Made by a program: the position numbers and the translations under genes
Part shown: piece by piece, positions 666 to 19,457 of the stretch
Layout: each line of letters starts with the position of its first letter
Numbering within the stretch: position 1 is the first letter of the stretch
Notes under the pieces: generated by a model
What the model was told of the DNA's origin: nothing
The model's input: the letters and a program-made list of their open reading frames with translations, nothing else
The model's database searches: none
Source of the DNA: a virus
IMG/VR virus record: IMGVR_UViG_3300010885_063453
Coordinates: 1-22,582 of that record
Direction: 5' to 3' (one strand)
Length of the DNA: 22,582 bases

Positions 666-1058
666 ATGACAGGATATAGTGCAAGATTGCCGCTACAATA
701 TAGCGAATCAGACGGTCCTTACACACTAAATAAGGATCTAAAAGACGTAATACGCCAAAATTTAAAGATGTTGATTCTCACTAACCCAGGCGAGCGTGTT
801 ATGAATGTAGATTACGGGGTTGGCGCAAAACGCTTATTATTTGAAAACCGCTCATCGTCGGCGGTTAGCTATATTCAAAGTGCAATACTGTCGCAAATAA
901 GCAAATATATGGCTTTTATTATCATAAATTCTATAAATGTACAAACAACCGATACAAATATGGAGATTGACGAGAATACAGCATATATTTCACTTGATTA
1001 TTCTATCCCATCCCTAAAAACTGAAGATAGCATTAGTCTAATTCTGTCGTCAAACTAA
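666..1058 (+). CDS. 25: Baseplate wedge protein gp25 (GpW/gp25 family)
   Basis: This 130-residue protein matches the gp25/GpW family in length (T4 gp25 is 132 aa) and in its hallmark segment at residues 40-60, which reads NPGERVMNVDYGVGAKRLLF. That segment corresponds to the conserved Pro-Gly-Glu-Arg plus 'FGVGLRRFLFE'-type core of the family. In T4 and P2 this protein sits at the inner baseplate, binds the gp6/gpJ dimer and helps start sheath assembly. The N-terminus carries the usual 'ND.LKDVIRQNLKMLILTNPGER' helix and loop arrangement, and the C-terminus is beta-rich. The start is supported by AGAGGA at 654-659. The gene lies 25 bases upstream of gp6, as W precedes J in P2-like phages. The old 'lysozyme-like' label for this family does not imply enzyme activity, and no catalytic motif is visible. 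Confidence 0.95.
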   Translation: MTGYSARLPLQYSESDGPYTLNKDLKDVIRQNLKMLILTNPGERVMNVDYGVGAKRLLFENRSSSAVSYIQSAILSQISKYMAFIIINSINVQTTDTNMEIDENTAYISLDYSIPSLKTEDSISLILSSN

Positions 1059-2895: not shown

Positions 2896-4319
2896 TGAGC
2901 ATAAAAAGATATACGGCAGAAGCCGATACAACAATCGCAGACGCATTCAAACCAGATATGATTAACCGATCGACTACCTCAAACATGGGTTTGTCAGATT
3001 CTCTTGAGATATTTTCGATATATCAGCAAGTATTGCCAGACTCTCTAGAAAAATCTAGAATGTTAATACAGTTTCCAACTTCAAACATAATTGCTGATAG
3101 AACTTCTGGTAACTTACCAGCTTCTGGCAGTGTCAAGTTTTTTTTAAAGCTATTCAATGTTAAGCATCCTTTTACGTTACCAAAAGAATACAATCTTAGT
3201 GTATTTCCCATTTCTGGCTCTTGGATAGAAGGATATGGACTAGATCTTGATGAGTATTCAGATCTTGGATTTGGCGAAACAAATGGTTATGGAACAAATT
3301 GGAGATACAGAATCAGTGGATCATCATGGACAGAATATGGCGGTGATTATTATGCTGACCGAGAAATTACTCAATTCTTTAAAGAAGGATATGAGGATTT
3401 AAATGTAGATGTTACATCTATAGTTGAGGAATGGGTTTCCGGTAGCCTACCAAACGATGGATTCCTAATTAAATTACAGGATTCCTACGAGGATGCTTCG
3501 CGTAAGCAGAGTTATTATACAAAAAAATTCTCAGCAAGAGGAACACAATATTTCTTCAGTCGACCAGTTATAGAGGCGCAGTGGGATGATTCGATAACCG
3601 ATACACGTAATAGCTATACGCCATATATACATGGAATGAATATTGCAGATGCAACCAATACAGTTTATTTTTATAATAGAGCCTATGGAAATTTAATAAA
3701 TCTTAATACTACAGGCGGTTTACCGGTCTTTAAACTCTATTCCGATGCGGAAGGTACTTCGAAAGTTTCAACGCTCTATAACACGGTTATAAGCCCTTCT
3801 GTGGGCATCTATAAGGCGCAGTTTGCAACCTCGGCAGCATTTGAAACATTGTACGATCGCTGGCATGAGAGTGGGTCAAATAGGCTATTCTTTAGTGGAT
3901 CAATTAAAATTAGACAAGACTCAGATAGATCAGATAGCTACTCAGAACCAGAATATATTATGAATATAACTAATTTAAAATCATCATATTCAAATATGGA
4001 AAAAAGTAGAATAAATATCTATTCAAGAGAGAAAAATTGGCAACCAACAATCTATACAGTTGCTTCAAATAATATTGAAAATACATCTCTTAAGAATTTA
4101 TACTATAGAATATTCAGAATAGATGATAATTACGAAGTATTACCGTATACAACAGGCGCGATTCAATATACAAAAGTAAGCTATGACAAAAATGGAAATT
4201 ACTTTACGCTAGATATGAGCTTACTTGAACCAGATTATTCATATGGAATTAATTTAGGTCAATATATTAATGGCGGTATTAAGCAATATAAGAATACATT
4301 TAAATTTAGGGTTAAATAA
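2895..4319 (+). CDS. DNRLRE-like beta-sandwich structural protein between gp6 and the giant wedge protein
   Basis: This is a 474-residue protein. Residues 1-225 follow the pattern of DNRLRE domains, the carbohydrate-binding-like beta sandwiches common in bacterial surface proteins. They show AEADTTIADAF near the N-terminus, a 'MLIQFP' strand, a 'VKFFLKLFNV' strand, ISGSWIEGYG with the characteristic Trp-x-Glu, DVTSIVEEWVSG, NDGFLIKL, then KKFSARGTQYFFSRPVIEAQW. The last resembles the family's terminal 'F.SRE....P.L.V.W' strand. Residues 230-474 look like further beta-rich domains without a family I can name. AGGA at 2880-2883 precedes the ATG, which overlaps the gp6 stop, and the next start overlaps this gene's stop (both TAATG). 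Its place inside the wedge gene block suggests a baseplate component, possibly an adhesive or bracing protein. The domain call is pattern recognition by eye and function is inferred. Confidence 0.75.
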   Translation: MSIKRYTAEADTTIADAFKPDMINRSTTSNMGLSDSLEIFSIYQQVLPDSLEKSRMLIQFPTSNIIADRTSGNLPASGSVKFFLKLFNVKHPFTLPKEYNLSVFPISGSWIEGYGLDLDEYSDLGFGETNGYGTNWRYRISGSSWTEYGGDYYADREITQFFKEGYEDLNVDVTSIVEEWVSGSLPNDGFLIKLQDSYEDASRKQSYYTKKFSARGTQYFFSRPVIEAQWDDSITDTRNSYTPYIHGMNIADATNTVYFYNRAYGNLINLNTTGGLPVFKLYSDAEGTSKVSTLYNTVISPSVGIYKAQFATSAAFETLYDRWHESGSNRLFFSGSIKIRQDSDRSDSYSEPEYIMNITNLKSSYSNMEKSRINIYSREKNWQPTIYTVASNNIENTSLKNLYYRIFRIDDNYEVLPYTTGAIQYTKVSYDKNGNYFTLDMSLLEPDYSYGINLGQYINGGIKQYKNTFKFRVK

Positions 4320-7300
4320 TGGATATTAAGAGCCTTTTCGATTCAAATAATCAGCAAAGCGAAAATCATAATCTAGAAGTAATCAATAAATCTCTTAGAT
4401 CCGAAGAATATATTGAGAACGTATCTGTTGAAAAAAATAGATACATGCCCGCTGTTGATTACACGACTGCATCTAATTTTGCTAAATATGGTTCGGCAGA
4501 AAAATACTATACAGATAGTATTTCTAGTATTTATAAAACATATCCATATGATGGTTCAAGTCGCGAAAAACAAGAGTGGCGTAACGATGCAAGCGATCTA
4601 GATCTATATTTCTACGACAATCTATATCCAAAATTTAAAGGCTATATTGAGCTAAGTGGCGGACAAAGCGTACGGTTTAATGGAGATATTAAATTAGACG
4701 CCACCGCTACAAACATAAAAGATCTAAAGAAGACTAACGTATATGATCCAAGTTTAAATCGTTCATCAAATATAGTATTTCCAAGCGGCAGCACGGCTGT
4801 TACTGTTGAATTTTTATATAAACGAGATGAAGTATCGAACTATAATCACATATTAGCTAATTTTAAAAGCGATAACAGAGAGATCGCAGTATATTCAAGC
4901 AATACACAGCTAGGAGTATTTCTTAATCTGACAAGCGAAGGTTTTGTTATACCAGAAACAGTAGACGTATACTCCTGGAATCATTATGCATTTGTAATAT
5001 CTACCTCTAGCATTAAATTATTTATCAATGGTGTTTTTATAGAACAAAAAATATTATCTAATGCTTCAAATGATGCTTCGTTGGGTAGCGTAACTGGGTC
5101 GATTGGTGCAAATATCGGTTCATTTCCGCATTTTTTTCAAACATCTGGCAGCTTTGACGAGTTCCGCTTCTGGAAAACCGAAAGAACAGAAGAACAGATT
5201 TACCAATATCACAAATTTAATATCGATGGCGGTTCGAATACCGATAATTATGCTAGTGATTTAAGCGTATATTATAAGTTCAATGAAGGAATTTCTGGTG
5301 TAGCGTCAAACGACGCAATTGTTCTTGATTACTCTGGTCGTATAGCAAATGGTGTAGTACTAAACTATACGCCAGATGTTAGAAAACAAGGATCTGCTAT
5401 CGACTTACTACCAAATAACGATGGTAGTGAGATCGGCGACGTTATACTAAATAGCGCTCACCAAGATGTTGTCGCATTATATGAAGAATATCAATTAAAA
5501 GGACGCGTACACGACGAAGGAAATATTAATAGTTCAATAAATATGTTCCCGTCTTGGATACTAGACGAGGAACAACAAAGCGATAAACAAGAATTAAATA
5601 ATCTTGTTCAAATTATGTCAAGCTATCTTGACAATTTAAATATTCAGATTGATAGTCTGACCAAGATAGGTAACATTTCATATACTCAAGAATTAGAGAA
5701 GCCATTACCAGACTTTTCTAAGATATTAAGCTCTTATGGATTTTCAATAAGTGATATATTTAGCGATACAACAATTCTCGAAGAGATGCTTTCAAGAAAC
5801 GATGACATTAACTACGCAGAACGTCTTGAAACAATAAAGAATTCAATTTATAAAAATATATATAATAATTTATCGTTTATCTATAAATCAAAAGGTACCG
5901 AAAAGTCATTTAGAAATCTTATTAGATGCTTTGGTATTGATGACGAGGTCATAAAATTAAATATCCTAGCTAATAATTTCAAATATAAGCTAGAAAATAA
6001 ATCAACCACTTCTACCGCTTTAAATAAATATATCAATTTTAACTCAACAGATAATTTTGGCGGAACTATATTCCTATCTAAATCTTCAAGCGATGCTGAC
6101 TTTCGTGGATATATTGATGGAATCGACGATTCTCTTGTTCCATTTACACTGGAAGCAGAATTTGTTCTACCTAAAAAATTTGATGTCTCGTCTCCGTTAT
6201 ATTTTGATACGCCATTCCTATCATCTTCAATCTTTGGTATGCATCCGGCAAGCACGGATGAGTCAGATACTTCATGGTATGGAAATAATTGCGATTTAAT
6301 GGCGTATGCCGTTAAGAAAGATACTTTTTCAAAAGATATTAGCTTTCAACTTGTTGTTGAGTCTATTGGATTTACATTAAGCTCTCCAACTATCCCAGAA
6401 GCCTATGAAAACAAAAAGTGGAATCTTGCGATAAGAATAAAAGATAAAAAATTTGACAAGAGTGGAAGAATTTTTAACGACGCAAATGTACCATATACGC
6501 TAGAATTCTACGGTGTTAGTACCTACGCTGGATATATCGACGATAGCTTTAGTGTATCGGCAGATATCACGGCAGAACAAGCATCCAACATGATATCTGC
6601 GAGAAAGCGTATCTACGGTGGAGCGCACTACGACAACTTTACCGGCTCGCTATTACAACAAACCGATGTCAAGCTTTCAAATATTAAATTCTGGTACGAC
6701 TACTTAAACGATGAGGAAATTACTGCTCATTCTTTAGACCCTCTATCCTATGGAGTCGAGAACCCACAAAATATTGCATATTTTCAAAGTACTTCGTCAT
6801 ATTCTAGCGCAGTATCTAGAATAGAAACGTTGGCTTTGCATTGGAATTTTGCCAATGTTAGCTCTAGCGACGATAATGGACAGTTTTCCGTATTAGACAA
6901 TAGCTCTGGTGATGTCGACCTATCGACCAGATCATCTATCTTTAACTCAATTAATAAAAAACATACCGGCCTTGGACGTAATTTTATTGCAAATAGCAAA
7001 AGTATTGTTGACAGTGACTATATTTTTAGAAATAAAAAAACACTACCAGAATATATTAATAGCGACGAGCTAATCCAAGTATTAGAAGAGGATACTATAT
7101 CGTTAAAGAAATCTCCCAAACCAACGGTTTATTACTATAAGTTTGAAAAGAACATGTATCAAACAATTTCAGAAGAAATGCTAAATATGTTCTCGGATGT
7201 ATCTAAATTTGCAAATGTTTTTGCAAAACCAATAGATGCTTTGAAGTATTCTTATGATGATCTAGAGCATATTCGAGGACTATTTTTTGATAAAGTAAAT

Positions 7301-10300
7301 AATAAACCGGATATAGAAAAATTTATTGAATTCTATAAATGGATTGACTCTTCTATAACAGACAGCCTACAACAATTAGTGCCAGCTACAGCAAGAGTTT
7401 CAAAAACTCTTTCAAACACAGTCGAAAGTCACATATTTGAAAGAAATAAAATAAACAATCGTGGTTGGCTCGTAAAAACAAACGATAGATATAAAAATAT
7501 AATCGCTAGACCTACCAAGAGAGATAACTGGGTAGACGAGAAGGCTCCGACATCGCCAGCAGGCGGGAACTGGTACAAAAAAAGAGCAATCAGAACAGAT
7601 GCTGTGGACGGAGTAAATACTCCTGGCCGTCCAGACATTGATGCTCAAAGAGAATTAATTCGTAAGGCGATGTATGTTAAACCTTTAAGCGATGGCAAGT
7701 ACGTTTATGATTCAGTTGGAAATGAAATTCCAAGCTATAAATATTCAACTGGCGATGCCAGTGTACCGGTTCTATCACTTACTTCAAGCCTAAATGATAT
7801 AATTTCTGATTCTATTACACCGGCAAATATATATCCAAAAATTAAAAATTACTCTTTAGCGTATCAAAATATTGTAATAAATGGAAGCGCAGCAAATAAT
7901 AGAATCGGGCTAAATGTTGGTAACTCTGTAGCGAAACTTCTAACCTTTCCGCTTAACTCTGATATTACCGGCTCTGCTGCGCCGATAAAGAAAACATATA
8001 AAACAATTTTCATTAGTAGATTCTCTGCGCCTGGTGAAAGAAAAACGCAGACTCTTGCGTTCTTAGACCCTGCCGGTAGCGAATATTCTGCTTATACAAA
8101 TGTAAATGCTAGAAATTTAGATGTTCGCACTCCATACAACAAACTACTATCGAACACTTCAAGTATTGATACAGTCGCGCCTTCAATTCATAAAGTTAAT
8201 AAAAATCCATCATATGCTTCTTCAAAAATTACATATGATAACTGGTTCGTACAACATCAAATTCCAAGAAGCGATAAGCAATATGCTTGGATAAAAAATT
8301 CCATTATAACAGCAACTACGGGAACAGGATATATGTTCCCAAATTCTCCAAATATTGATGCAACAAGTGAAATAGCTTTTTCTACTGGTACTATTGGTGC
8401 CAACGGCTACATAGATTATGTTGGTACTAATCTTGTAATACAAACATCGGTAGATACCTCAAGTAACACGATAGGGCCAGCCTCATCGTTAACTGGGACG
8501 CTGCTAAACAACTATCTCTTAAACATGAATGGTCCATATGGAGCGCCATCTTGGAAACAATCTCGCGTTGCAAATAATCCATTAATGATATTAGATAGAA
8601 AAAACAATATTATTACCGTACAAGATGGAGATGCGCAAACAACATCTGCATTTAGAGAATCGCCAGTTCAATATAATTTCGAAACACAAGTTCTACTATA
8701 TGACTCTAAGAACAAAAAAATGTATCCTTATGTATTAGAAGTAGAAAATAGTCGAGATACGTTTGCAAACAAGGATTTATTAAGTAAACTTAATTTAGCA
8801 GACTATGATTACGTATACGATTTAGAGAAAACAGCACCAACTTACAAAAAAATTAAAGATATGGTATTTTTGATACCAGAGCAGTATAAACTTATCAGAT
8901 CTATGCATAAACAGGTGCTATTCCCAAACAAATCCCTATTAGGATTAAAAGAGTCGCGTAATAAACCAAATTATACAGAAGCTTCTGGTACTGGCTCTAA
9001 TGGATACGACCGTAATGTTGCCACAATAAGAAGCTTCTGGCGCGATACAGCCACAAATAGATTAAGAACAATTGGAGCAGTAAGCGGAGCAGTAAACAGC
9101 TTAAATTATTTCTTCGTAACGCCACAAGGAAATAATAATATTTCAGTCGCTAATAAGTCTCTATGCTCAAATATAACATTACTATCTGACTCAGTTTCCA
9201 TTACTTCTTCCTATTCTAAGGATAGAAAATATAACAGCTTTTGGGCACAAGACACAAACATAGAAGCATCGACCTCATCACTTCCGACAAGCTATGGAAG
9301 TAATGTATCTATGAGTGTCAATTATAGTTCTGTAACTTTTGGAGAATTAGGATCATACCCAGAATATTATATCTTAAATAATATATTAAGTCAGTCTGGA
9401 TATGTAACAACCGGTAGTATAAATACTAACTTTGGATTAATAACAAATTATTATTTTAATTACAATAATACAACAGGTTCTATTGCTAGTGGGATACAAG
9501 TATCTGATCGATATATTCCAAAGCCACAATTTTTATTTATAAATCACAAGTCTTCTCTTCAGTATAATACTTCTTCAAACGATGTATTTTTATTTACACT
9601 TAATAATGGAACGAAATATTTGACAGATGTACTATCAAATAATAAACCGTGGTTTGACTCATATGATGATTTCTCATCTGATTTTAGAACTATAGGCAAA
9701 AACTACTCGATCATACCAGAATATAAAATTTCAAATAACATGGAGTATTACATTAAAGAGAAGAATGGATATTTTTCTACTGCTCCAAAAAATTATCTAG
9801 ATATAGATGGAGCCAGCGCGTATTCAAACACTTCAAATATATTTAATAAGTTTGTATTGGATAGCGGAGAATCTAAAAAAGTCAAAATAAAAGTAAACGC
9901 AATAAAGAAACTTCTACCATACAAGGGTTTTTATCCATCAGAGAGAAGTACGCAAATAGTTGAATTGTTCCAAGACTCATTCTTTGGACTAACGCCAGAA
10001 CAAATGACGTTTGGGGCAAATACGATGTCTCCAAGCGGTTCCGCTTCTTCAAGTTATTTACAAAACAAGCTTACGCCGTTTGATCAGCAAGTTTCGACAA
10101 TAATACAGCCGCTATTTGCGCCAGGTATTCTCTACAATACAATCAAAGCAGGTATGGCTGTCGATTGGCCTGTTATGTTAAGAACGGATGTTGATTATGA
10201 TAGTGCGGCAGCTCCAAGCTTCTACGAAACAGTAAAGGGAGGAGCTTTAGCTGGTGAATATATGTATCAAATGACAGGTACATTTGATCATAGAATTCAG

Positions 10301-12250
10301 TTTGAAGATATTTTAAATATTGAAACCATTATACCGCAGAACTTTAAAAATAAAAACTTATACTATCTAAATCCAACATATTATAATGGTGATATTGGAG
10401 GGTATACAAGCGGATCCCTAAATACTCTTTATAATTCTGGCTTGAAATATCCTTCTTATCAAGTAAATTATAAATATAATAATATAAATCCGTCTTGGAC
10501 TTCTAAGAACGCATTATATTCTTTAGGTATACATAATTATTTAGCAGAAATTCCAACTTTCTTCCTAAAGAATGAAAGTTTAAATAACTTTACTTCTAAG
10601 CCTGGTAAATCCATAAAATCTGTTATCGCCGGTAAAGTCTATTCTATGGATGTATATATTAAGAAAGACTCAAATTACAGCAATTTTGTTGAATTCACAG
10701 GTTCTGGTATTTATTCAGCGTCTTCGGTGGAACCATTTTATCCTCATAATTACTTTAGCGAAGAATTCTTTGGACCTCCTTCTAAATGGCTTGAAGATAA
10801 TACTTTGGCAACACCGGAAGTACAAAATGGAAATTTTTTAACAAAATTCTCATATCAGCCATACGCTCCGCCTTACTATTATGGAAAATCAATTGCAAGA
10901 TTAAGTTATTCATCTAGTTTTGATGGCTCTACAACAATTAAGGATATATTAGAAAATCTAAAAATTGAATTTATTAATACGGAAAAAGATAATGAGTTAT
11001 CCGCCATAAAGGTTGGAAAAATCGGAGGAGGAATAACCTATTACTACGATACTGCCGCAGCATATACAAATTCTATGAATCTGGGCGCTTGTATAAATTT
11101 TAAGCAGCTATCCACTATTAAAGACATAACATACGATGCGTCTGGAAATCCTATTACTGTCGGTGATTCAACGCAGGACTCGCAGGATGTTTGGAGCATC
11201 CAGACGAAATTTGAAGTACCAGTTCTAAATTTTAATAATGATTTAAACATAAATGCAGCAAATTCATTAATTAAAACACAAAGCTTAAATAGCGGAAAGC
11301 AGTTTAGTAGTATTTTCCAAACTGTAGGATTATGGAGTGGATACGGTTCTGCGCCAGAATCCGGCAAGGGTATAGCTTTTGGTATAGAAGACTCTGTTCC
11401 TAAACTACGTTTTGATCCAATTTCAAAAACCTGGGTAATAAATGTATTAACTGGTTCACTAATAGATTTATGCGGCTTTCAAACTTCGCAAAAAGATATC
11501 GGAGCCGTTGCGGATTCTAAAGAAATATCAGAAGCGGTTATCCTAATCCCTTACGTAGAAAAAGGTTATGAAAACTTAGATAATAACTCCAATGCAAAAA
11601 ATATACTAGGAATTATTGGAGAGAATGGAGTTTCTAGTGATACAAGAGATTTGGGTCCATTCTATTTCTCTATCGATAAGCAAAAGATAAAAGAATTAAC
11701 CGGCACTGATTTTCAATTATTATCAAAAGATGTTGTAAAGAAGGCGTTAAATATTGGAAACAAAGATAATTCTATCTTAAAAACTATGGATTTAATGACA
11801 TCCTATAATATTCCTCCTCATTTAGATTGGTTAAATAACAAAAATATTGATCCGTTTGTTATGTATGTATGCGAATTTAAACATACCCTAGATAAGCAAG
11901 ACTTAACAGATATTTGGCAGGGACTAATGCCAAAAATAGCACAATCGGCTCAATTAGACGACTCTAGCTTTGAACATAAACTAGATGAAAGTGAATTCTT
12001 CCACGGTAAGAACTTACCAAATAATATCAAATTTAAGATCTTTAAGGTTAAAAAGAAGGCAAAAACTAACTATTACAGTCTAACAGCAGACAGTTCAGAC
12101 GATAATAGATTTAAATTTAAGTTCAATAATCAAGAAAAACAAGTAGATTATTCTTATAACTGGCCGTATGATTACTTCTCACTAATCGAAATGGTCAACG
12201 TGGAAGCAACAACCGAATCTGGTATAAAAATTCCAGGATTTGGTGGATAG
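4319..12250 (+). CDS. Giant baseplate wedge-like protein with two LamG-like domains (gp7/gpI-type)
   Basis: This single 2643-residue protein fills 35% of the window. Domain order by eye: residues 1-100 unassigned; about 110-350 a LamG/concanavalin-like domain (SWNHYAFVISTSSIKLFING near 219-238, GSFDEFRFWKTERTEEQ near 278-294); about 396-545 a helical segment with SYLDNLNIQIDSL and SFIYKSKGTEKSFRNLIRCF, the latter resembling the 'KGT' helix of gpI-like tail proteins; about 600-815 a second LamG-like domain (KKWNLAIRIKDKK, LSNIKFWYDYLNDEEITAH); about 971-1044 a segment ending LVPATARV and VESHIFERNK. Further recognisable islands are RFSAPGE near 1234, YDNWFVQHQIPRSDKQYAWI near 1306, LTDIWQGLMP near 2531 and YSYNWPYDYFSLIEM near 2611. 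Position after gp6 and the gpI-like segment suggest the gp7/gpI role, though T4 gp7 has only 1032 aa. AGGG at 4308-4311 precedes the ATG, which overlaps the upstream stop. It ends with the window's only TAG stop. An adhesin or fibre role is the main alternative. Confidence 0.9.
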   Translation: MDIKSLFDSNNQQSENHNLEVINKSLRSEEYIENVSVEKNRYMPAVDYTTASNFAKYGSAEKYYTDSISSIYKTYPYDGSSREKQEWRNDASDLDLYFYDNLYPKFKGYIELSGGQSVRFNGDIKLDATATNIKDLKKTNVYDPSLNRSSNIVFPSGSTAVTVEFLYKRDEVSNYNHILANFKSDNREIAVYSSNTQLGVFLNLTSEGFVIPETVDVYSWNHYAFVISTSSIKLFINGVFIEQKILSNASNDASLGSVTGSIGANIGSFPHFFQTSGSFDEFRFWKTERTEEQIYQYHKFNIDGGSNTDNYASDLSVYYKFNEGISGVASNDAIVLDYSGRIANGVVLNYTPDVRKQGSAIDLLPNNDGSEIGDVILNSAHQDVVALYEEYQLKGRVHDEGNINSSINMFPSWILDEEQQSDKQELNNLVQIMSSYLDNLNIQIDSLTKIGNISYTQELEKPLPDFSKILSSYGFSISDIFSDTTILEEMLSRNDDINYAERLETIKNSIYKNIYNNLSFIYKSKGTEKSFRNLIRCFGIDDEVIKLNILANNFKYKLENKSTTSTALNKYINFNSTDNFGGTIFLSKSSSDADFRGYIDGIDDSLVPFTLEAEFVLPKKFDVSSPLYFDTPFLSSSIFGMHPASTDESDTSWYGNNCDLMAYAVKKDTFSKDISFQLVVESIGFTLSSPTIPEAYENKKWNLAIRIKDKKFDKSGRIFNDANVPYTLEFYGVSTYAGYIDDSFSVSADITAEQASNMISARKRIYGGAHYDNFTGSLLQQTDVKLSNIKFWYDYLNDEEITAHSLDPLSYGVENPQNIAYFQSTSSYSSAVSRIETLALHWNFANVSSSDDNGQFSVLDNSSGDVDLSTRSSIFNSINKKHTGLGRNFIANSKSIVDSDYIFRNKKTLPEYINSDELIQVLEEDTISLKKSPKPTVYYYKFEKNMYQTISEEMLNMFSDVSKFANVFAKPIDALKYSYDDLEHIRGLFFDKVNNKPDIEKFIEFYKWIDSSITDSLQQLVPATARVSKTLSNTVESHIFERNKINNRGWLVKTNDRYKNIIARPTKRDNWVDEKAPTSPAGGNWYKKRAIRTDAVDGVNTPGRPDIDAQRELIRKAMYVKPLSDGKYVYDSVGNEIPSYKYSTGDASVPVLSLTSSLNDIISDSITPANIYPKIKNYSLAYQNIVINGSAANNRIGLNVGNSVAKLLTFPLNSDITGSAAPIKKTYKTIFISRFSAPGERKTQTLAFLDPAGSEYSAYTNVNARNLDVRTPYNKLLSNTSSIDTVAPSIHKVNKNPSYASSKITYDNWFVQHQIPRSDKQYAWIKNSIITATTGTGYMFPNSPNIDATSEIAFSTGTIGANGYIDYVGTNLVIQTSVDTSSNTIGPASSLTGTLLNNYLLNMNGPYGAPSWKQSRVANNPLMILDRKNNIITVQDGDAQTTSAFRESPVQYNFETQVLLYDSKNKKMYPYVLEVENSRDTFANKDLLSKLNLADYDYVYDLEKTAPTYKKIKDMVFLIPEQYKLIRSMHKQVLFPNKSLLGLKESRNKPNYTEASGTGSNGYDRNVATIRSFWRDTATNRLRTIGAVSGAVNSLNYFFVTPQGNNNISVANKSLCSNITLLSDSVSITSSYSKDRKYNSFWAQDTNIEASTSSLPTSYGSNVSMSVNYSSVTFGELGSYPEYYILNNILSQSGYVTTGSINTNFGLITNYYFNYNNTTGSIASGIQVSDRYIPKPQFLFINHKSSLQYNTSSNDVFLFTLNNGTKYLTDVLSNNKPWFDSYDDFSSDFRTIGKNYSIIPEYKISNNMEYYIKEKNGYFSTAPKNYLDIDGASAYSNTSNIFNKFVLDSGESKKVKIKVNAIKKLLPYKGFYPSERSTQIVELFQDSFFGLTPEQMTFGANTMSPSGSASSSYLQNKLTPFDQQVSTIIQPLFAPGILYNTIKAGMAVDWPVMLRTDVDYDSAAAPSFYETVKGGALAGEYMYQMTGTFDHRIQFEDILNIETIIPQNFKNKNLYYLNPTYYNGDIGGYTSGSLNTLYNSGLKYPSYQVNYKYNNINPSWTSKNALYSLGIHNYLAEIPTFFLKNESLNNFTSKPGKSIKSVIAGKVYSMDVYIKKDSNYSNFVEFTGSGIYSASSVEPFYPHNYFSEEFFGPPSKWLEDNTLATPEVQNGNFLTKFSYQPYAPPYYYGKSIARLSYSSSFDGSTTIKDILENLKIEFINTEKDNELSAIKVGKIGGGITYYYDTAAAYTNSMNLGACINFKQLSTIKDITYDASGNPITVGDSTQDSQDVWSIQTKFEVPVLNFNNDLNINAANSLIKTQSLNSGKQFSSIFQTVGLWSGYGSAPESGKGIAFGIEDSVPKLRFDPISKTWVINVLTGSLIDLCGFQTSQKDIGAVADSKEISEAVILIPYVEKGYENLDNNSNAKNILGIIGENGVSSDTRDLGPFYFSIDKQKIKELTGTDFQLLSKDVVKKALNIGNKDNSILKTMDLMTSYNIPPHLDWLNNKNIDPFVMYVCEFKHTLDKQDLTDIWQGLMPKIAQSAQLDDSSFEHKLDESEFFHGKNLPNNIKFKIFKVKKKAKTNYYSLTADSSDDNRFKFKFNNQEKQVDYSYNWPYDYFSLIEMVNVEATTESGIKIPGFGG

Positions 12251-12278: not shown

Positions 12279-13181
12279 ATGGCATTCTTTAATAAAAAAG
12301 AGGAAGTAATCTCTCTAGAATTAACAAAATACGGTAAAGAAGCGTTTGCGTCTGGCAAATTTGCACCAGAATTCTATTGTTTCTATGATAATGATATAAT
12401 CTATGATGCTGGCGCTACAGGTGTAGACATAGAGCAAAACGATGTAGAGGAAAGAATCGCATCTGATATTCCATCTATAAAAGAAAATTTTAATTTTTTT
12501 GAATCAAGCCTATCAAAACTTTCAAAGATAGCAATAGATAGGAATAATAGTTTTATTGGATTACCGATTGGTACATCTGATCCGCTTAACCCGTATTTCC
12601 CAGCTTGGGATATAAAAATCAGAAATGCAGCTATTAAAAACTGCGTTCCTGTGGTTTCTAAAGATGTGCAACCGTATAATTACATAGGAGATAATCCTAT
12701 CCCACAAATAAATATAGATGATGTCTATCTTGATATAGTCATAGATAAAAGTTATGCTGACGAAAAGATAAATACTGCGGCTGGTGAGTTTTTACAGCTA
12801 GGACCAAAACCAGATAAATCGTTTGTTAAAAGCTTGGAGAATTATATTCTATTAGAGATAACAGAAGAAAATGGTATAGATATAGGAGATAATTTTGATA
12901 TAGAATTCTTATCTGTCGAAAAAACAGCTGTTGGGACCCAACTATTAAATTTAAACACATACGATAAGATTAATAAATTTCCAACAAATAAAGTTGTAGA
13001 TGGAATATTGATGGATGAATTAGATATCCCGACTCGAGATGTTCAAGATATTATGAATAAAGACGTAAAAGAACTATCAAAATATTTCAATGTTCAAGTA
13101 GATGAAGAAATCCCAGAAGAGCTAAAAGTGGAACGTTTGTATCTTTATAGTGGACAATTTAATAATCAAGAGGATTGCTAA
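12279..13181 (+). CDS. Structural protein with the small 'FFNKKEEV' N-terminal module
   Basis: This 300-residue acidic protein has no named family that I can identify. Its first 45 residues (MAFFNKKEEVISLELTKYGK, then SGKFAPEFYCFYDNDIIYD) form a compact module that aligns with the N-terminus of the 309-aa protein at 17169 with a single gap. The start of similar proteins recurs in large environmental phages as I remember them. The module is therefore probably a shared docking or assembly element. The rest includes a 'NAAIKNCVPVVSK' segment and a strongly acidic C-terminus (DIPTRDVQDIMNKDVKELSK). No clear Shine-Dalgarno sequence precedes the ATG in the 28-base gap after the giant gene, but the N-terminal similarity to the paralogue supports this start. 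The stop overlaps the next ATG. Baseplate or tail location is inferred from context only. Confidence 0.85.
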   Translation: MAFFNKKEEVISLELTKYGKEAFASGKFAPEFYCFYDNDIIYDAGATGVDIEQNDVEERIASDIPSIKENFNFFESSLSKLSKIAIDRNNSFIGLPIGTSDPLNPYFPAWDIKIRNAAIKNCVPVVSKDVQPYNYIGDNPIPQINIDDVYLDIVIDKSYADEKINTAAGEFLQLGPKPDKSFVKSLENYILLEITEENGIDIGDNFDIEFLSVEKTAVGTQLLNLNTYDKINKFPTNKVVDGILMDELDIPTRDVQDIMNKDVKELSKYFNVQVDEEIPEELKVERLYLYSGQFNNQEDC

Positions 13182-15262
13182 TGCTAGATAAGATAAATTA
13201 TTCACTATATCTAACACTACAGGAAACTCCTGCCGTTTCAATAGAGGATTTTTATGTATCCGAGAAAGAAAAGACAAATAAGTATTGTATTGATCTAAAT
13301 TTTTCAATTAGAGATACAGTAATTGGTGGAAATTCTAATATCGATCTTATTAAGTCCAGATTTGCTACAAAATGTACTGTTTTTGCTGTTAATAACGAAA
13401 AAGCTTTTAACTTAATCACAAGAGAAAATTATAAAGAGCATCTCAATAGCCATTCTATTGTCTACAAAAGAGTTATAGATATAGCTATCAAAGATAGAAT
13501 CGAGAATACTGAATATTTTTTCGAAACAGACCACGTTATATTTCCTGGCGATAAAACACCAAAGAAAATAAAGCAACTGGAGGTCAAATACGGAATAAAG
13601 AACCCGCATAAATCTGTTATCGTGAGCAGATATTTTTATAAACCTAAGCTTATTTTAAATAAATATAACTTCATCGGCGTATTTGTTGTGTTTGAAGCAG
13701 ACAAATCTATATATCCAGCCTCTATTCACTCCCACAAGTTAATATCTAACAGCAAGATAAATAACAGAGCGGATATCTTTGTTGATATTAGCGGTCAAAG
13801 ACTATTAAATGTATATAACGAGGGCATAGTTAGACCAGATATGAACATAGCGAATAGCTATGGAATAAAATTACTATCGCCTCAAATCAAATCTATCAAA
13901 AAAACAACAGAAATGCCAATAATTGAAGATATATATAAAATTATCGAGCCTGTTGCACCTATTGAAAAAACAAAAGATAAAAAATATACAGACCTCTACC
14001 ATTTCGTGGATACTGATAATAACCATTGTTATATCTACGGTATAGACATAGGTAAATTAATGAACTCCTCTGATATTGCATCTCTAAATGTAAATCAAAA
14101 ACTGCTATATGTAAGCAGGACAACAGGACGTAAATACGAGCTAGATAATATCTCTATACAAAAGTTCGCCAACGTCCAGGCGTCAAATACCGGTATGATA
14201 TTCTACGAAGCAAAGGATCACGATAAATTAAAATCATTAATAAATGGTGACTACAATCTTGAAATCCTTCTTGATATAACTAGCCACGATACCCATACTA
14301 AATCTAGCCATATTTTTAGTCATATAATATCAACTGATAATTATATAGCTGGGCTTCAATACATACTTGCCAGAAATATCGATATATCCGTAATTACAAG
14401 TGGAATTTTGAGCGACTTTCTAACCCCAATACACTTTTCTCATATAGATGAAGTGTATAACTTCAAACAAACGCTAGATTCATCTGGTGCAAAAAAGTAT
14501 ATCAGAGAGATAGGTAAAAAATTATTTGATAAATATCTAAACGATCATGTGTTTTTTATGACGGAGGATAGTCCCTCTAAGGATAAAAACCCTCAATTAA
14601 AGCAAACGATCTTTAAAGTTATAGATAATAAAGAAAAAACAAAAGCTCCGCATGCATCACAACCACAGCAAGCAGATCTAAAGAAAGACAATATAGATTT
14701 ACTTGAAATAGATAACTTCTTTATTTTAAAAATTGGCAAATTTATTCAATATTTTAGATCGCCAGAGACAAAAACAATATATTCCGTAGATACAGATACG
14801 TCAAATATAATAAACTACAGTAGATTCCCCAATATTCAGTCCATCGTATCTATATTGAATAATATGAGCGATGATAAATTAAATTCTATAGCTAATTCTA
14901 TAGCGCCAGACATCCAGCAAGATAAAAAAGGCTATATAAAACAACAAGTTGTAGAAACAGTAATTTCTGATCTATACAATAATTTCGGTTTCGATCCTTA
15001 TTTTTATAAAGATACATATAGTCTTATATCTGTTTTATTAAAATGGGGAAATGTTGCAAGATTGGAAGTTCTGAAGTCATTTAATAATGGTATAGAAGAA
15101 TGGGTAGCGTTAAGTAATATGAAGAGTCTAAAAGGATCTATGCCAACAGGACAAACATATATTTTTAGATTACGTCCTGTTGATTTATATGATTTTGGAC
15201 TAGTTAGTGATCCACAATTACGATTTAATATCTATAACCAATATTTTGCATTGAGTACATAA
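13181..15262 (+). CDS. Large orphan structural protein, 693 aa
   Basis: I do not recognise this protein. The preferred start is the ATG at 13181, which shares its first base with the TAA of the upstream gene and has AAGAGGA at 13168-13174. An in-frame TTG at 13175 would add two residues but lies too close to that ribosome site. The N-terminal 230 residues are beta-rich with several 'VIVSRYFYKP' and 'FIGVFVVFEADK' strand-like stretches. A middle part around residues 285-395 includes DLYHFVDTDNNHCYIYGIDI and SHIFSHIIS. A Lys/Gln-rich linker near 487-505 (EKTKAPHASQPQQADLKKDN) separates a helical C-terminal domain. The last 60 residues contain EEWVALSNMKSLKGSMPTGQ and a 'FRLRPVDLYDFGLVSDP' segment. 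No catalytic motif, signal peptide or membrane span is evident. Packed between structural genes, it is probably a baseplate or tail component. Confidence 0.85.
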   Translation: MLDKINYSLYLTLQETPAVSIEDFYVSEKEKTNKYCIDLNFSIRDTVIGGNSNIDLIKSRFATKCTVFAVNNEKAFNLITRENYKEHLNSHSIVYKRVIDIAIKDRIENTEYFFETDHVIFPGDKTPKKIKQLEVKYGIKNPHKSVIVSRYFYKPKLILNKYNFIGVFVVFEADKSIYPASIHSHKLISNSKINNRADIFVDISGQRLLNVYNEGIVRPDMNIANSYGIKLLSPQIKSIKKTTEMPIIEDIYKIIEPVAPIEKTKDKKYTDLYHFVDTDNNHCYIYGIDIGKLMNSSDIASLNVNQKLLYVSRTTGRKYELDNISIQKFANVQASNTGMIFYEAKDHDKLKSLINGDYNLEILLDITSHDTHTKSSHIFSHIISTDNYIAGLQYILARNIDISVITSGILSDFLTPIHFSHIDEVYNFKQTLDSSGAKKYIREIGKKLFDKYLNDHVFFMTEDSPSKDKNPQLKQTIFKVIDNKEKTKAPHASQPQQADLKKDNIDLLEIDNFFILKIGKFIQYFRSPETKTIYSVDTDTSNIINYSRFPNIQSIVSILNNMSDDKLNSIANSIAPDIQQDKKGYIKQQVVETVISDLYNNFGFDPYFYKDTYSLISVLLKWGNVARLEVLKSFNNGIEEWVALSNMKSLKGSMPTGQTYIFRLRPVDLYDFGLVSDPQLRFNIYNQYFALST

Positions 15263-15263
15263 T

Positions 15264-17135
15264 ATGGAAAAACGTTATAATGTAAGTACAAAAGTAACAT
15301 CCGATGGTGCTGATAGCTTAAGAAAAGCTATCGGATATTGTGCACCATTTGATACTGTAAAGTTTCCATACGAATCCACCACCGATAGTATCAATCTATT
15401 ACGTGAACCGACAGAAGAGTTTTTAAAAGTTGCAGAGTCTTCTACCGGCTCTGTAGACAAACCGATTGAGTACTTTAATACATCAGTTAATTATAATAAC
15501 GATTCCTTTAATGTCAGATTTAATCAAACGCGACTACAAGACGAAATACAAACACTCACAGATAATTCTATAACAAACGAAAGAAGTCTAAATAATTTCT
15601 ATGATTTTATAAATTCATCTGGTTCGCCAGTAGATCAACTTGCATTCACGAATGGTGTTATTTCAGACCAGTTTCACAAAACATATTTTTTTGATTACGA
15701 AACTTCTAAAAAAATAAATAACTATAATAAAAAGAGCCATATTAAAAAAAGCTATGTACAAATAAAAATTGATCTATCAAGAGTAATAATCAAAGATTCA
15801 TTTTTTGATTTTTTACAGAAAGATGAAAAGTATAGTCAAATAGTGTTTAGAAACTATTTATTTTCATTTTATAAAGATGGAGGATCTACAGATACAGAAA
15901 TTTTTTCAAATATCAAATTAGAAAGATCTAGATTCCCTTCTTGTATATATGAAAAAAAATTATTTGATGCATATGCTATAAACGTCAATGACCCAAATTA
16001 TGCAATATTTAAAACAAGCTATACAAATTTCTCTATCGCTCTAAGTACATCGTATACTCTAAGTGAGTTACCTACAAAATCAAATAAGATACATCAAGAC
16101 AAAAATGTCGTTCTAGCGAACGATTCAACTGATTTTATTCCAGTTTATTTAAAAATAGAGAAATATAAAAATAATCAAAAAACCGTATTGCAAGAGTTTT
16201 ATATTTCAATTGGACCGGATGTCAAACAATTCAGCTTCATAGACTCTCAAGTGTTCTCTGGTGGACTTTATTCATACAAATTTAAAATTATAGGTATCTC
16301 AAAGGGTATAAACTATTACTATACAAAAGACGGCAATAACTACAAAATTAACTACGCCCCAGATCAACATAAATTAATAGAAGTTCCATTTGCAGAAAAG
16401 CAGGCATACGTTGATACGATTGCTCCAAGAAAGCCAGCAATTTCTCCAACTCTAATGCCAAGATTGGATAATAATGTAGTTATTCCTCTTACCTCTTCGC
16501 GAGCCAAGGAAGCAAATCTAATACCAAATAATGGATTTACAACTAATAAGATCGCAGTAGGACAAAGTATAAACTTTATTGATGATTTTGACTCGTTTTT
16601 GCTATATAGAATAGAAAACGAACCAACTTCTGTACTTGATTTTATTAATTTGACTCCTATAGCAACAATAAGCAGTAAGCTTAACCTCTATATGGATACA
16701 ATAGAATATAATAAAACATACTACTATACCGTTATCTCAAAAAATATGAGTTTCTACTCTAACCCATCTGAGATTTTTAAGATTAGACTAGCCTATGATA
16801 AAGGCGCATTTATACCTCAATTTGAGAAAATAGTTCTAAGAGAAAAACCCCCAGAAGAGGTTTCTGATAAGTCTAAAAAGATGAAAAAATATCTTAAAAT
16901 ATCACCTTCTGTATATCAATATATCGTAAACGAGGCAGGAGGCATAGGTGATACCTATCAATATTCGGATATTAATGTCAAATCGGTCGGCACCAATGGC
17001 GCAAGTATATGGCAAAACGATATAGAAGATCCAAAATTTAAGGTTAGACTAACGTCTAGAACAACCGGAAAAAAGATAGATATAAATTTAAACTTTAAAT
17101 ATCGCATAATTAATAAATTCGAACAAAACAATTAA
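15264..17135 (+). CDS. Structural protein with FN3-like domains
   Basis: This 623-residue protein starts one base after the upstream stop (TAATATG), with no strong ribosome site. Residues 1-260 are unassigned, with RFNQTRLQDEIQTLTDN near 87-103 suggesting a helix. From about residue 285 the sequence becomes beta-rich: FYISIGPDVKQFSFID, then GGLYSYKFKIIGIS, which has the Tyr-x-Tyr-x-Phe rhythm of an FN3 strand pair. Residues 384-512 resemble a second FN3 domain, opening with DTIAPRKPAISP and closing with KTYYYTVISKNMSFYSNPSE, the usual 'Y.Y.V.A.....S.PS' ending. The C-terminus (residues 540-623) is basic. FN3 and Ig-like domains are common on phage tail and baseplate surfaces, where they are thought to give weak adhesion or act as spacers. 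No other family was recognised, so the role is inferred from domains and context. Confidence 0.85.
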   Translation: MEKRYNVSTKVTSDGADSLRKAIGYCAPFDTVKFPYESTTDSINLLREPTEEFLKVAESSTGSVDKPIEYFNTSVNYNNDSFNVRFNQTRLQDEIQTLTDNSITNERSLNNFYDFINSSGSPVDQLAFTNGVISDQFHKTYFFDYETSKKINNYNKKSHIKKSYVQIKIDLSRVIIKDSFFDFLQKDEKYSQIVFRNYLFSFYKDGGSTDTEIFSNIKLERSRFPSCIYEKKLFDAYAINVNDPNYAIFKTSYTNFSIALSTSYTLSELPTKSNKIHQDKNVVLANDSTDFIPVYLKIEKYKNNQKTVLQEFYISIGPDVKQFSFIDSQVFSGGLYSYKFKIIGISKGINYYYTKDGNNYKINYAPDQHKLIEVPFAEKQAYVDTIAPRKPAISPTLMPRLDNNVVIPLTSSRAKEANLIPNNGFTTNKIAVGQSINFIDDFDSFLLYRIENEPTSVLDFINLTPIATISSKLNLYMDTIEYNKTYYYTVISKNMSFYSNPSEIFKIRLAYDKGAFIPQFEKIVLREKPPEEVSDKSKKMKKYLKISPSVYQYIVNEAGGIGDTYQYSDINVKSVGTNGASIWQNDIEDPKFKVRLTSRTTGKKIDINLNFKYRIINKFEQNN

Positions 17136-17168: not shown

Positions 17169-18098
17169 ATGGCTTTTTTAAATAACAGTGGTGACATAAT
17201 CCTAGATGCCGTTTTAACTGACACAGGCAGAATGCATCTAGCCAATGGTACTTTCAATGTCGAAAAGTTTGCTCTAGCGGACGATGAGATTGATTATTCA
17301 TTGTGGGATATAGCTGGCACGACATCTACGCAGGATATCAGCATCTTAAAGACTCTTGTTTTTGAGGCATTTACAAATAATGCAGCAACCATGAAAAACA
17401 AGCTAATTACGATCCAGGGTTTAAAAGATATACTTTTCCTACCAGTTATGAGAATTAACAATCTGTCAACGGGTGGACAACCATATTCGACAAAAGTATT
17501 ACCAAGCGGCTATATTGTCGCTGTTGATATTGCAACAGAAACTGCGCTTAGCGGCCTAAAAGGCAGTACCGCCAATAGCGTAGGGACATTCCTATTTGGT
17601 GCCACAACAAACAGCACAAGCGTACTAAGAGTTGATCTTGGTATTGATACAAGCGCAATTGATGTAATCGATGAAAATTTAAAAGAAAGCGCATTTACGT
17701 TTGAGATGGATAACCGCCTAGGGTATCTATTAGACGCAAATAAGCTTTCAATAGAATCAAAAAATAAGCAATATGTCGACGATGACAATATGGCAAGTTA
17801 TCTAGTAACAGTTGCAGAGCAGAATCTTGTCGATTCAAATGTAATTCCTGTTGGTTCTACTGCTGCAAGCGAAGTTATCAGTGGCCCAAGAGACAAGTAC
17901 CTAAAATTCTCTGTTGGCTCTTCGACTCTATTAAAAACAAGTACCTATCTATTTGATCAAATTGGCACAACAGTAAGCTTAACCGGCTTAACAGGTGGTA
18001 CTGTTAAAGTTATCTATTCTTCGATTAACATTCAAGGCGTAGATACAGGCGCGCTCGTAAGCGTGCCAGTTGCGTATGTAAAATATATCGCTAGCTAA
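17169..18098 (+). CDS. Virion structural protein with 'FLNNSGDIILDAVLTDTGR' N-terminal module
   Basis: This is a 309-residue protein rich in Ala, Gly, Ser and Thr. Residues 3-48 (FLNNSGDIILDAVLTDTGR, then LANGTFNVEKFALADDEIDY) form the same small module that opens the 300-aa protein at 12279. This version I associate from memory with structural proteins of large marine myoviruses. After it come segments such as PVMRINNLSTGGQPY and VGTFLFGATTNSTSVLRVDL, then a beta-rich C-terminus ending VPVAYVKYIAS. Codon use looks less AT-rich than in the genes on either side, and AGGAG precedes the start. Both fit a protein made in high copy, though neither was measured. Sheath, tube or baseplate-ring roles are conceivable, but nothing in the sequence identifies it as a sheath or tube family member. 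Confidence 0.88.
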   Translation: MAFLNNSGDIILDAVLTDTGRMHLANGTFNVEKFALADDEIDYSLWDIAGTTSTQDISILKTLVFEAFTNNAATMKNKLITIQGLKDILFLPVMRINNLSTGGQPYSTKVLPSGYIVAVDIATETALSGLKGSTANSVGTFLFGATTNSTSVLRVDLGIDTSAIDVIDENLKESAFTFEMDNRLGYLLDANKLSIESKNKQYVDDDNMASYLVTVAEQNLVDSNVIPVGSTAASEVISGPRDKYLKFSVGSSTLLKTSTYLFDQIGTTVSLTGLTGGTVKVIYSSINIQGVDTGALVSVPVAYVKYIAS

Positions 18099-18115: not shown

Positions 18116-19249
18116 ATGTCATCAACTTATAAGAATTTAGGACCAAACGATAAAGTAGTTTCAAAGACGCTACTATATGAAAACGTACCAGTCACTGGTA
18201 CAATCGTCTCTGGTGCATACGTGGCTTCGGCGGGCGTTGAATCAAACATCTACCGCTATGGACACGGTATGTTCCAGACAGTATATGACTATCCATATGC
18301 TAGCTCATCAGCAAACTCGCTATTTGATATAACCGCCGGTTATAACAAGCAATCATTATCATATAATGTTGGATCGACACAAAATTCCACCAAGGTTAAT
18401 ATCTATAACCAGATGGCTAAAGTTCTTAATGGAGTAGACCCAACTGGTTCTGTTATACCATTCGACATGGATGGAAATACGTCAACAAGCAATACAACAA
18501 TTGATAATGCGTTATTTATAACATTCTCTAGATTATTGGTCAAAGACGAGATCAAAAAAGGCTCATTCTCTTTAAGAATGAACTTAGCTGGCCAAAATAG
18601 AGCAGCTCTTGGTGCATTAACCGGTACAATAATTGATTATTCTGGTACGCTAAATCCTCCATCTTTTGGTACAAACTCACCAGTTGGAGAATATGGAATA
18701 CTATATATCTCAGAAAGCAATGCCGCCTATCCAAATCCAGATAAAAGAGTTGGCTTAATCTATTATCAAGCAGGAGTTGCCGTATTGAATGCTAATCTGT
18801 TTGCGCAGAGTAGCTCTGCTTCCCCAGCTTTAGGCTATGCAACAAGTAGCCTAGGCCAATTATTATATGGCGATATGATGTATACGCTAACATCAAGCTA
18901 TACAAACATCCAAACGCTTATGACAAGCGCATCAATTGATGATATTGGAAATGCGTTAAGAACTCGTATTAACAATGTCCAGCTACAAAACACAACAGAA
19001 TTAAATTCTTCAATCTATTTCCTAAGATTAGATAACGATGAATTTAACTATAGCTCAAATCCAACTTATGTAAGCTCAAGCGCAATAAGAGTAAAAAACG
19101 GAAATCCTATGAATTCTGCAGTATCCTATATAACAACTGCAGGTTTATATTCAAGCCAAAATGAGCTTATGGCGGTTGCTAAACTATCTGAGCCTATCAA
19201 GAAATCAGAAGATCAATCGCTAATATTAAGAGTAAGATTGGATTACTAA
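18116..19249 (+). CDS. Virion structural protein, paralogue A (377 aa)
   Basis: This 377-residue beta-rich protein is similar over its length to the 332-aa protein at 19457. Three shared islands appear in the same order. First, ITFSRLLVKDEIKKGSFSLR (here about residues 143-162) matches the partner's IPSVFYGKSIQKGTVGLDF. Second, VGLIYYQAGVAVLNANLF matches VVLYDQGFVLLTGSWPLL. Third, near the C-terminus, EFNYSSNPTY and then ELMAVAKLSEPIKKSEDQS match EFNTSNNLTY and LLAVAKLATPLKKSDSKD, and both proteins end in an 'RVRLDY/KLKLDI' strand. I recall such proteins from large marine phages as uncharacterised structural proteins. The gene has a good ribosome site (AAGGA) and an Ala/Ser/Gly/Thr-rich composition, which suits an abundant virion protein. 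It is probably a tail or baseplate component, with no specific role assignable. Confidence 0.88.
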   Translation: MSSTYKNLGPNDKVVSKTLLYENVPVTGTIVSGAYVASAGVESNIYRYGHGMFQTVYDYPYASSSANSLFDITAGYNKQSLSYNVGSTQNSTKVNIYNQMAKVLNGVDPTGSVIPFDMDGNTSTSNTTIDNALFITFSRLLVKDEIKKGSFSLRMNLAGQNRAALGALTGTIIDYSGTLNPPSFGTNSPVGEYGILYISESNAAYPNPDKRVGLIYYQAGVAVLNANLFAQSSSASPALGYATSSLGQLLYGDMMYTLTSSYTNIQTLMTSASIDDIGNALRTRINNVQLQNTTELNSSIYFLRLDNDEFNYSSNPTYVSSSAIRVKNGNPMNSAVSYITTAGLYSSQNELMAVAKLSEPIKKSEDQSLILRVRLDY

Positions 19250-19250
19250 T

Positions 19251-19457
19251 ATGATTTATAAGAGATTTGAAGAAGGCGATATATTACATAATACGCTGGA
19301 GGCAAATCCAGAAGTAAAGATCTCTATTAGCAATAAAAAGATATATATAAAGAACTATAATCCAACAGTAGAGGACGTTAGAGTTGCAAAAGAAAGCGGG
19401 CAGCCGCTCTCGGTACAGTCAATATCGCTTCCTCTATTGTTAACAGGATCGATATAA
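19251..19457 (+). CDS. Small conserved-looking protein between two paralogues, 68 aa
   Basis: This 68-residue ORF starts one base after the stop of the 377-aa gene (TAATATG), and its own TAA overlaps the next ATG (TAATG). Without it there would be a 207-base gap in an otherwise gapless operon, which is the main reason to believe it is real. The protein is mixed-charge at its N-terminus (YKRFEEGDILHNTLEANPE), then has a beta-like SISNKKIYIKNYNP stretch and a hydrophobic end (SISLPLLLTGSI). The end is too short and interrupted to be a convincing membrane anchor. There is no clear Shine-Dalgarno sequence, so coupling to the upstream gene is likely. No family is recognised. A small partner or connector of the flanking paralogues is a guess. 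Confidence 0.7.
   Translation: MIYKRFEEGDILHNTLEANPEVKISISNKKIYIKNYNPTVEDVRVAKESGQPLSVQSISLPLLLTGSI

Follow-up and report, generated by a model that had tools for sequence, protein, structure and literature searches.

The best-described counterparts of the protein reported here are T4 gp7 and P2 gpI (PF09684), whose genes likewise lie directly, or nearly so, after gp6 or gpJ and whose helical KGT region stands in register with its own. Several wedge proteins of this kind are already linked to host contact. Tail spikes or fibres are attached to the gp7-like proteins of Vibrio phage XM1 and of AlgoCIS (PMC10457771, PMC8894135): in XM1, receptor-binding spikes are carried by a loop and the C-terminus of gp17 (PMC10457771), and in AlgoCIS the gp7-like part has been termed a re-engineering hotspot and tail-fibre site (PMC8894135). 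Carbohydrate-binding domains on wedge proteins are also known, in Vp4 Gp119 and AlgoCIS Alg11 (PMC11406892, PMC8894135). Gp119 was shown to bind host cells (PMC11406892), Alg11 has two carbohydrate-binding modules (CBMs) in its domain IV (PMC8894135), and in phage K8 a mutant putative wedge protein binds core oligosaccharide (PMC9887876). Given the precedents of Vp4, AlgoCIS and K8, host contact in the baseplate is not in itself a new idea.

Here we describe a 2643-residue protein encoded on a 22.6-kb fragment of an uncultivated virus (22,582 nucleotides, hereafter the window), which combines these themes in a distinct way. Its N-terminal part resembles T4 gp7 in size (about 1000-1100 aa), but, unlike in T4 gp7 and P2 gpI, a pair of LamG sandwiches encloses the core, and the chain continues into a fused module of ~1520 aa. 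Vp4 Gp119 (wedge protein 3, Herelleviridae) is similarly a wedge protein with two folds of carbohydrate-binding type, but is an 831-aa protein of the A511 gp105 type, with other CBM families and a Gram-positive host. AlgoCIS Alg11 and Alg12 share the feature of large insertions in wedge proteins; there, the CBMs lie in Alg11, with the gp7-like part fused to a gp6-like part, whereas in the giant protein the sandwiches lie in the gp7-like chain and the fusion partner is an unrelated C-terminal module. XM1 gp17 is a gp7 orthologue, but has 242 aa, and its spikes are separate proteins. In the literature searched we found no LamG-bearing wedge protein; what is new is how widely the family extends, together with its fused extension and the LamG pair that flanks the gp7/gpI core.

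Gene order and integrity of the locus

The window presents, in order, gp25, gp6, a DNRLRE-like protein and the giant (Table 1), an arrangement proposed from inspection of the sequence and borne out by matches to PF04965, phrog_6 and NF033679/PF06848, although those of the DNRLRE-like protein (NF033679, E=1.2e-6; PF06848, E=5e-5) both lie under the curated cut-offs. Full-length tblastn matches to the window gp6 were found in Microcystis phage Mel-JY01, Flavobacterium immuto phages and LR756508. The giant was correctly read as a single ORF: 2643 codons run without an internal stop at 4319-12250 (+), and residues 673-2643 recur at 100% identity in an independent IMG/VR contig. It is very improbable that separate genes were joined artificially, by an error of assembly or frame, to give this length, since, even though separate ORFs occur in 16/80 related loci, the identical second contig spans the junction at ~1120 and 62 relatives carry one uninterrupted colinear ORF.

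Table 1. Features of the window, with residue numbers of the giant protein where applicable
Feature	Residues	Position	Strand	Basis or remark
gp25-like wedge / sheath initiator		666-1058	+	PF04965 E=3.5e-14; phrog_261, phrog_43
gp6-like wedge subunit, 603 aa		1084-2895	+	phrog_6 E=1.2e-17; phrog_219
DNRLRE / disaggregatase-repeat-like protein, 474 aa		2895-4319	+	between gp6 and giant
Giant, 2643 aa: gp7/gpI-like wedge subunit and fused C-terminal module		4319-12250	+	
Nt module, helical, strongly conserved	40-105	4436-4633	+	conservation and secondary structure
LamG1 sandwich	105-350	4631-5368	+	Pfam core 158-294 = 4790-5200
KGT helical core, gpI/gp7 trifurcation-type region	375-560	5441-5998	+	
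LamG2 sandwich (predicted)	562-907	6002-7039	+	AlphaFold; Foldseek to LG pairs, pentraxins, CBMs
LER segment, helical, 'ESHIFER-NK' type end of wedge part	940-1060	7136-7498	+	
Junction / insertion hot-spot 1	~1080-1165	7556-7813	+	natural split point in 8 relatives
C-terminal extension, ~1520 aa	~1120-2643	7676-12247	+	no known homologue
Insertion hot-spot 2	~1282-1314	8162-8260	+	
C3, fastest-diverging of shared domains measured	2240-2450	11036-11668	+	
C4, conserved C-terminal end	2480-2643	11756-12247	+	

Flanking ORFs were also inspected. Upstream of gp25, positions 3-653 encode an N-terminally open protein of 216 aa with a long hydrophobic stretch (GISLAAFGIATFNIALIPSLLGIIYYGTG) and without a family match. 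Behind the giant, the products of 13175-15262 (695 aa) and 15264-17135 (623 aa) have no significant PHROGs or Pfam match and are probably further tail proteins. At their C-termini, the products of 18116-19249 and 19457-20455 have a domain in common (24.6% identity, E=2e-7; end 'LLAVAKL..P.KKS...') that marks them, at sequence level, as tail paralogues. Those of 12279-13181 and 17169-18098 both start 'MAF(F/L)N..' and continue alike with 'LT..G...A.G.F....FA..D..I.Y', a likeness seen by eye and not detected by BLAST.

Relatives and conserved domain order

A scan with gp6 retrieved 57 loci. Wherever the sequence reaches far enough beyond gp6, the order is gp25, gp6, a variable gene or two and then a long ORF at the gp7 position; irrespective of lineage, the giant is separated from gp6 by one or two genes. 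Complete giants among the first relatives fetched from the window's clade measure 2741-3968 aa, all longer than the window protein, and those of a second clade, clade B, 2962-3074 aa. Scanning with a C-terminal profile revealed 592 relatives, of which 80 were kept, and the 59 complete single-chain giants span 2627-4037 aa (median 3246). Nine segment HMMs occur in one colinear order, Nt-LamG1-KGT-LamG2-LER-C1-C2-C3-C4, and the same order is found in 62/62 single-ORF relatives for the eight of nine segments tested.

Unfused cousins of 1135-1400 aa also occur. Two are from cultured phages, Microcystis phage Mel-JY01 (WWT39511.1, 1336 aa) and Flavobacterium phage immuto (gp109, YP_010114574.1, 1265 aa); like the giant they hold KGT and LER and occupy the same position behind gp6, but they lack such a C-terminal extension and are annotated as hypothetical. 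The others are a 1400-aa protein of LR756508, a 484-kb uncultured huge phage, and a 1135-aa protein on contig L037; the Nt module was found too in L078/L037.

The design is widespread in uncultivated phages, being conserved in dozens of them, but carried no annotation in the databases. Over the whole giant, LamG1 was the sole match in Pfam, NCBIfam and PHROGs; phmmer and profile searches against the PDB returned only 4dqa, with the N-terminal profile, and nothing with the C-terminal profile. In annotated phages, tblastn returned the LR756508 cousin and, besides it, only a LamG match in Brevibacillus phage Sundance, which was rejected as a relative, having LamG in common but not the wedge context. 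Self-comparison of the giant revealed no internal repeats.

Identity of the KGT core

The original prediction assigned the giant to the gp7/gpI wedge subunits from its position and from a gpI-like motif given as residues ~523-539. That motif, YKSKGTEKSFRNLIRCF, is present at residues 522-538 (positions 5882-5932) of the all-helical 'KSKGT' core, within the most conserved stretch of the chain (residues 501-550), and its K525, G526 and T527 are invariant in a 33-sequence alignment. The counterpart stretches are 'FYSTKGIEASYKFLFKVLY' in T4 gp7, where the region corresponding to KGT lies at ~620-760, and 'IHCHKGTIGAIRRVVEPLG' in P2 gpI. For comparison by hhalign, bacterial genomes served as the source of diverse P2 gpI sequences, a scan of viral contigs having given near-identical copies. 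The core aligned to this family with KGT in register (E=0.0016, score 27.4), a score reached by 0/150 shuffled-column controls (mean 11.1, sd 2.1, max 21.5). T4 gp7 aligned to the core in register as well (E=0.018; 1/60 shuffles reached the score), and by the same method the accepted orthologue pair, P2 gpI and T4 gp7, gave only E=0.49. The stretch aligned with gpI and gp7 comprises only 20-23 columns, a short length that makes this evidence of moderate strength.

Further indications came from Tail_P2_I, which was the second most recurrent among 24,736 Pfam models over 88 core sequences, with weak matches in 8/88 (best 0.053), and which matches the LR756508 cousin at the motif (E=0.024). The window protein has no match to the curated model (PF09684) and is therefore not filed under that family proper, which leaves the claim of gp7-type function unaffected; nor does the window core itself have a significant family match in PHROGs or Pfam. 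Foldseek of the isolated core against the PDB and BFVD returned no gp7/gpI match, on a poor model (pLDDT 69, pTM 0.37). The isolated fold is a weak test, because gp7-type cores share a bundle with gp6 (PMC10457771, PMC6300606) and probably fold only with it. The LER segment, which closes the wedge part, is matched by its HMM in all distant cousins, including those from cultured phages (E 5.5e-6 to 3e-26).

The assignment is thus supported by synteny in all relatives with sequence past gp6, the exact register of KGT and the recurrent weak Tail_P2_I matches, and its structural part yielded no match on a poor model. Residues 1-1120 are most likely a gp7/gpI wedge subunit, with a homology that is supported but not proven by sequence. 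We consider it unlikely that the giant is instead a tail fibre or adhesin adjoining the wedge genes, with an incidental KGT motif and with LamG1, LamG2 and the extension all engaged in receptor binding. LamG is frequent in adhesins, some relatives have extra LamG copies, Foldseek also matches the phage tailspike CBA120 TSP2, and a significant gp7/gpI fold match is missing; against these stand a gene that always lies behind gp6, a P2 gpI motif register better than 150/150 shuffles, LamG1 and LamG2 domains that diverge only moderately, and a KGT core and LER segment that are the most conserved parts and common to all distant cousins, clade B and the cultured phages.

LamG1 and a predicted LamG2 sandwich around the core

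Two LamG-type sandwiches framing the core had been predicted, and both are supported, at residues 105-350 by Pfam and 562-907 by AlphaFold and Foldseek. LamG1 corresponds to Laminin_G_3 (PF13385; E=8.5e-13, 49.1 bits against a cut-off of 27.6). This model matches 17/33 relatives, and an iterated HMM detects LamG in the window-clade giants with an intact N-terminus; LamG1 is fixed in the window's clade. In a near-identical pair of giants (L273 and L210, ~0.9 in the rest), a large insertion inside LamG1 differs, and LamG1 can thus accept inserts too.

No part of the AlphaFold model is predicted better than LamG2, a beta-sandwich with pLDDT mostly 70-93; Pfam LamG models gave no second matching stretch in this region of the window protein. 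The top Foldseek matches were 4dqa, a carbohydrate-binding protein (8.7e-6), tandem laminin LG4-LG5 pairs and pentraxins; those to LG4-LG5 pairs extend over ~730 columns, and the LamG2 assignment rests on these two-domain targets, for which query ranges are not given. Matches to clostridial neurotoxins were discounted as a guide to function, the lectin-type sandwich in common explaining them by itself. Profiles of LamG2 and LamG1 align colinearly over 140 columns, with a weak E=0.09, and have the landmarks 'W..A' and 'hFW...L...EI' in common. Mel-JY01 has a LamG2-type domain at the corresponding site (hhalign E=1.1e-5), as LR756508 probably does (E=0.0022), whereas immuto has only ~80 residues between KGT and LER and no LamG2. 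From the structural model, LamG2 appears to be a ConA-like sandwich, an assignment supported but not proven.

Across 77 relatives the divergence of LamG1 and LamG2 exceeds that of the core only slightly, and the fast divergence of a receptor tip was not seen: in the class with 0.7-0.9 core identity, LamG1/LamG2 stand at 0.67/0.64, KGT/LER at 0.74/0.81 and C3 at 0.56. Their stability does not favour the original proposal that these two domains make host contact, and the variable cassettes lie elsewhere. A reading that we hold possible, at somewhat less than even chances, and that is compatible with our preferred explanation, is that the pair are pure spacers or docking platforms on the wedge, binding no glycan. 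The fixation of LamG1 and the modest divergence of both sandwiches are in keeping with it, as are the equivalent placement of a LamG2-type domain in distant cousins and the published gp7-like proteins, which mainly dock fibres (PMC10457771, PMC8894135); but the fold matches are to carbohydrate- or glycan-binding sandwiches (4dqa, pentraxins, CBMs), and the Vp4 wedge protein Gp119, with its CBM folds, binds cells (PMC11406892).

A second module fused to a gp7-sized unit

The giant had been described as a gp7 2.5 times longer than that of T4. The T4 length is indeed 1032 aa, but the comparison is wrong: the counterpart of gp7 is limited to residues 1 to ~1120, and what follows is a fused second module, which is encoded separately in eight relatives and missing in the cultured cousins of 1265-1336 aa. 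In these 8/80 loci (L214, L226, L229, L232, L235, L251, L253, L259) a separate second ORF directly follows LER, the first ORF having 1216-1246 aa and the second 1679-2520 aa. Six further loci are split further down and two inside LamG2. In the cultured cousins and L037 the chain continues past the wedge part for no more than a few hundred residues, and C1-C4 profiles found no match in the stretches read. The window copy of the extension has no match in Pfam, PHROGs or the PDB. Clade B giants carry a ~2000-aa extension after LER, with no detectable homology to the extension of the window's clade (clade A). The middle part of this extension differs strongly between close relatives among clade B giants of ~3000 aa (e.g. 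L079:7169-16318 (-)).

The split and unfused versions, together with the unrelated clade B extension, identify the gp7-sized wedge part (~1120 aa) as the conserved unit. On two or more occasions this unit seems to have gained a C-terminal extension, each time with another passenger.

Exchangeable cassettes and divergence

At the two hot-spots (Table 1) relatives carry inserts of 250-340 aa (280-340 aa at hot-spot 2), several with an extra LamG; the window protein is without them. Close relatives exchange segments near residues ~1110-1165 and ~1296-1314, and C3 can diverge sharply, as between L248 and L260 (core 0.97, C3 0.55). One or two extra LamG domains were noted in ten giants (L066, L068, L072, L074, L075, L076, L244, L265, L267, L268), at several different sites that include the vicinity of LamG1 and the extension. 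Because cassettes are exchangeable at the junction and at ~1300, binding specific to the host, or the docking of fibres, is more likely to take place in the extension. These comparisons of sequence suggest that the fixed LamG1/LamG2 pair is a permanent element of the wedge; specific host contact, provided that the chain makes it at all, would lie in the extension and its cassettes.

Proposed organization and significance

We conclude that the giant is probably a gp7/gpI-type wedge subunit bearing a LamG pair and a fused tail-periphery module. The ORF, its synteny and domain order, the natural splits, the exchange of cassettes and the identity of LamG1 are observed directly. In the mechanism we propose, the first ~1120 residues would form a gp7/gpI-type wedge subunit of a contractile-tail baseplate, in which the KGT core, probably with Nt and LER, would join two gp6-like chains into a (gp6)2-gp7 wedge under gp25. 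LamG1 and LamG2, ConA-like sandwiches that flank the core as insertions, would project from the wedge, where they most likely make fixed, low-specificity contacts with glycans, as their fold suggests, or with neighbouring tail proteins. Residues ~1120-2643 may represent a second protein of the tail periphery, joined by in-frame fusion; the junction and the ~1300 site take exchangeable cassettes.

A bolder reading, which we regard as rather doubtful, is that the wedge subunit is itself the receptor-binding apparatus, one covalent chain leading from a gp6-binding core to an exchangeable host-contact region, the extension with its LamG cassettes; if true, binding would act on the opening of the wedge directly, with no separate fibre in between.

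This analysis provides a first functional label for a family of 2.6-4.0 kilo-residue proteins present in several hundred viral contigs; its relatives in cultured phages bear only the name hypothetical. The analysis portrays the gp7-type wedge chain as a site both for insertion of lectin-type domains and for insertion or fusion of a whole neighbouring gene, through which contact with the host could be made by the wedge protein directly. That fused, split and unfused versions occur in nature makes direct host contact by a wedge protein testable.
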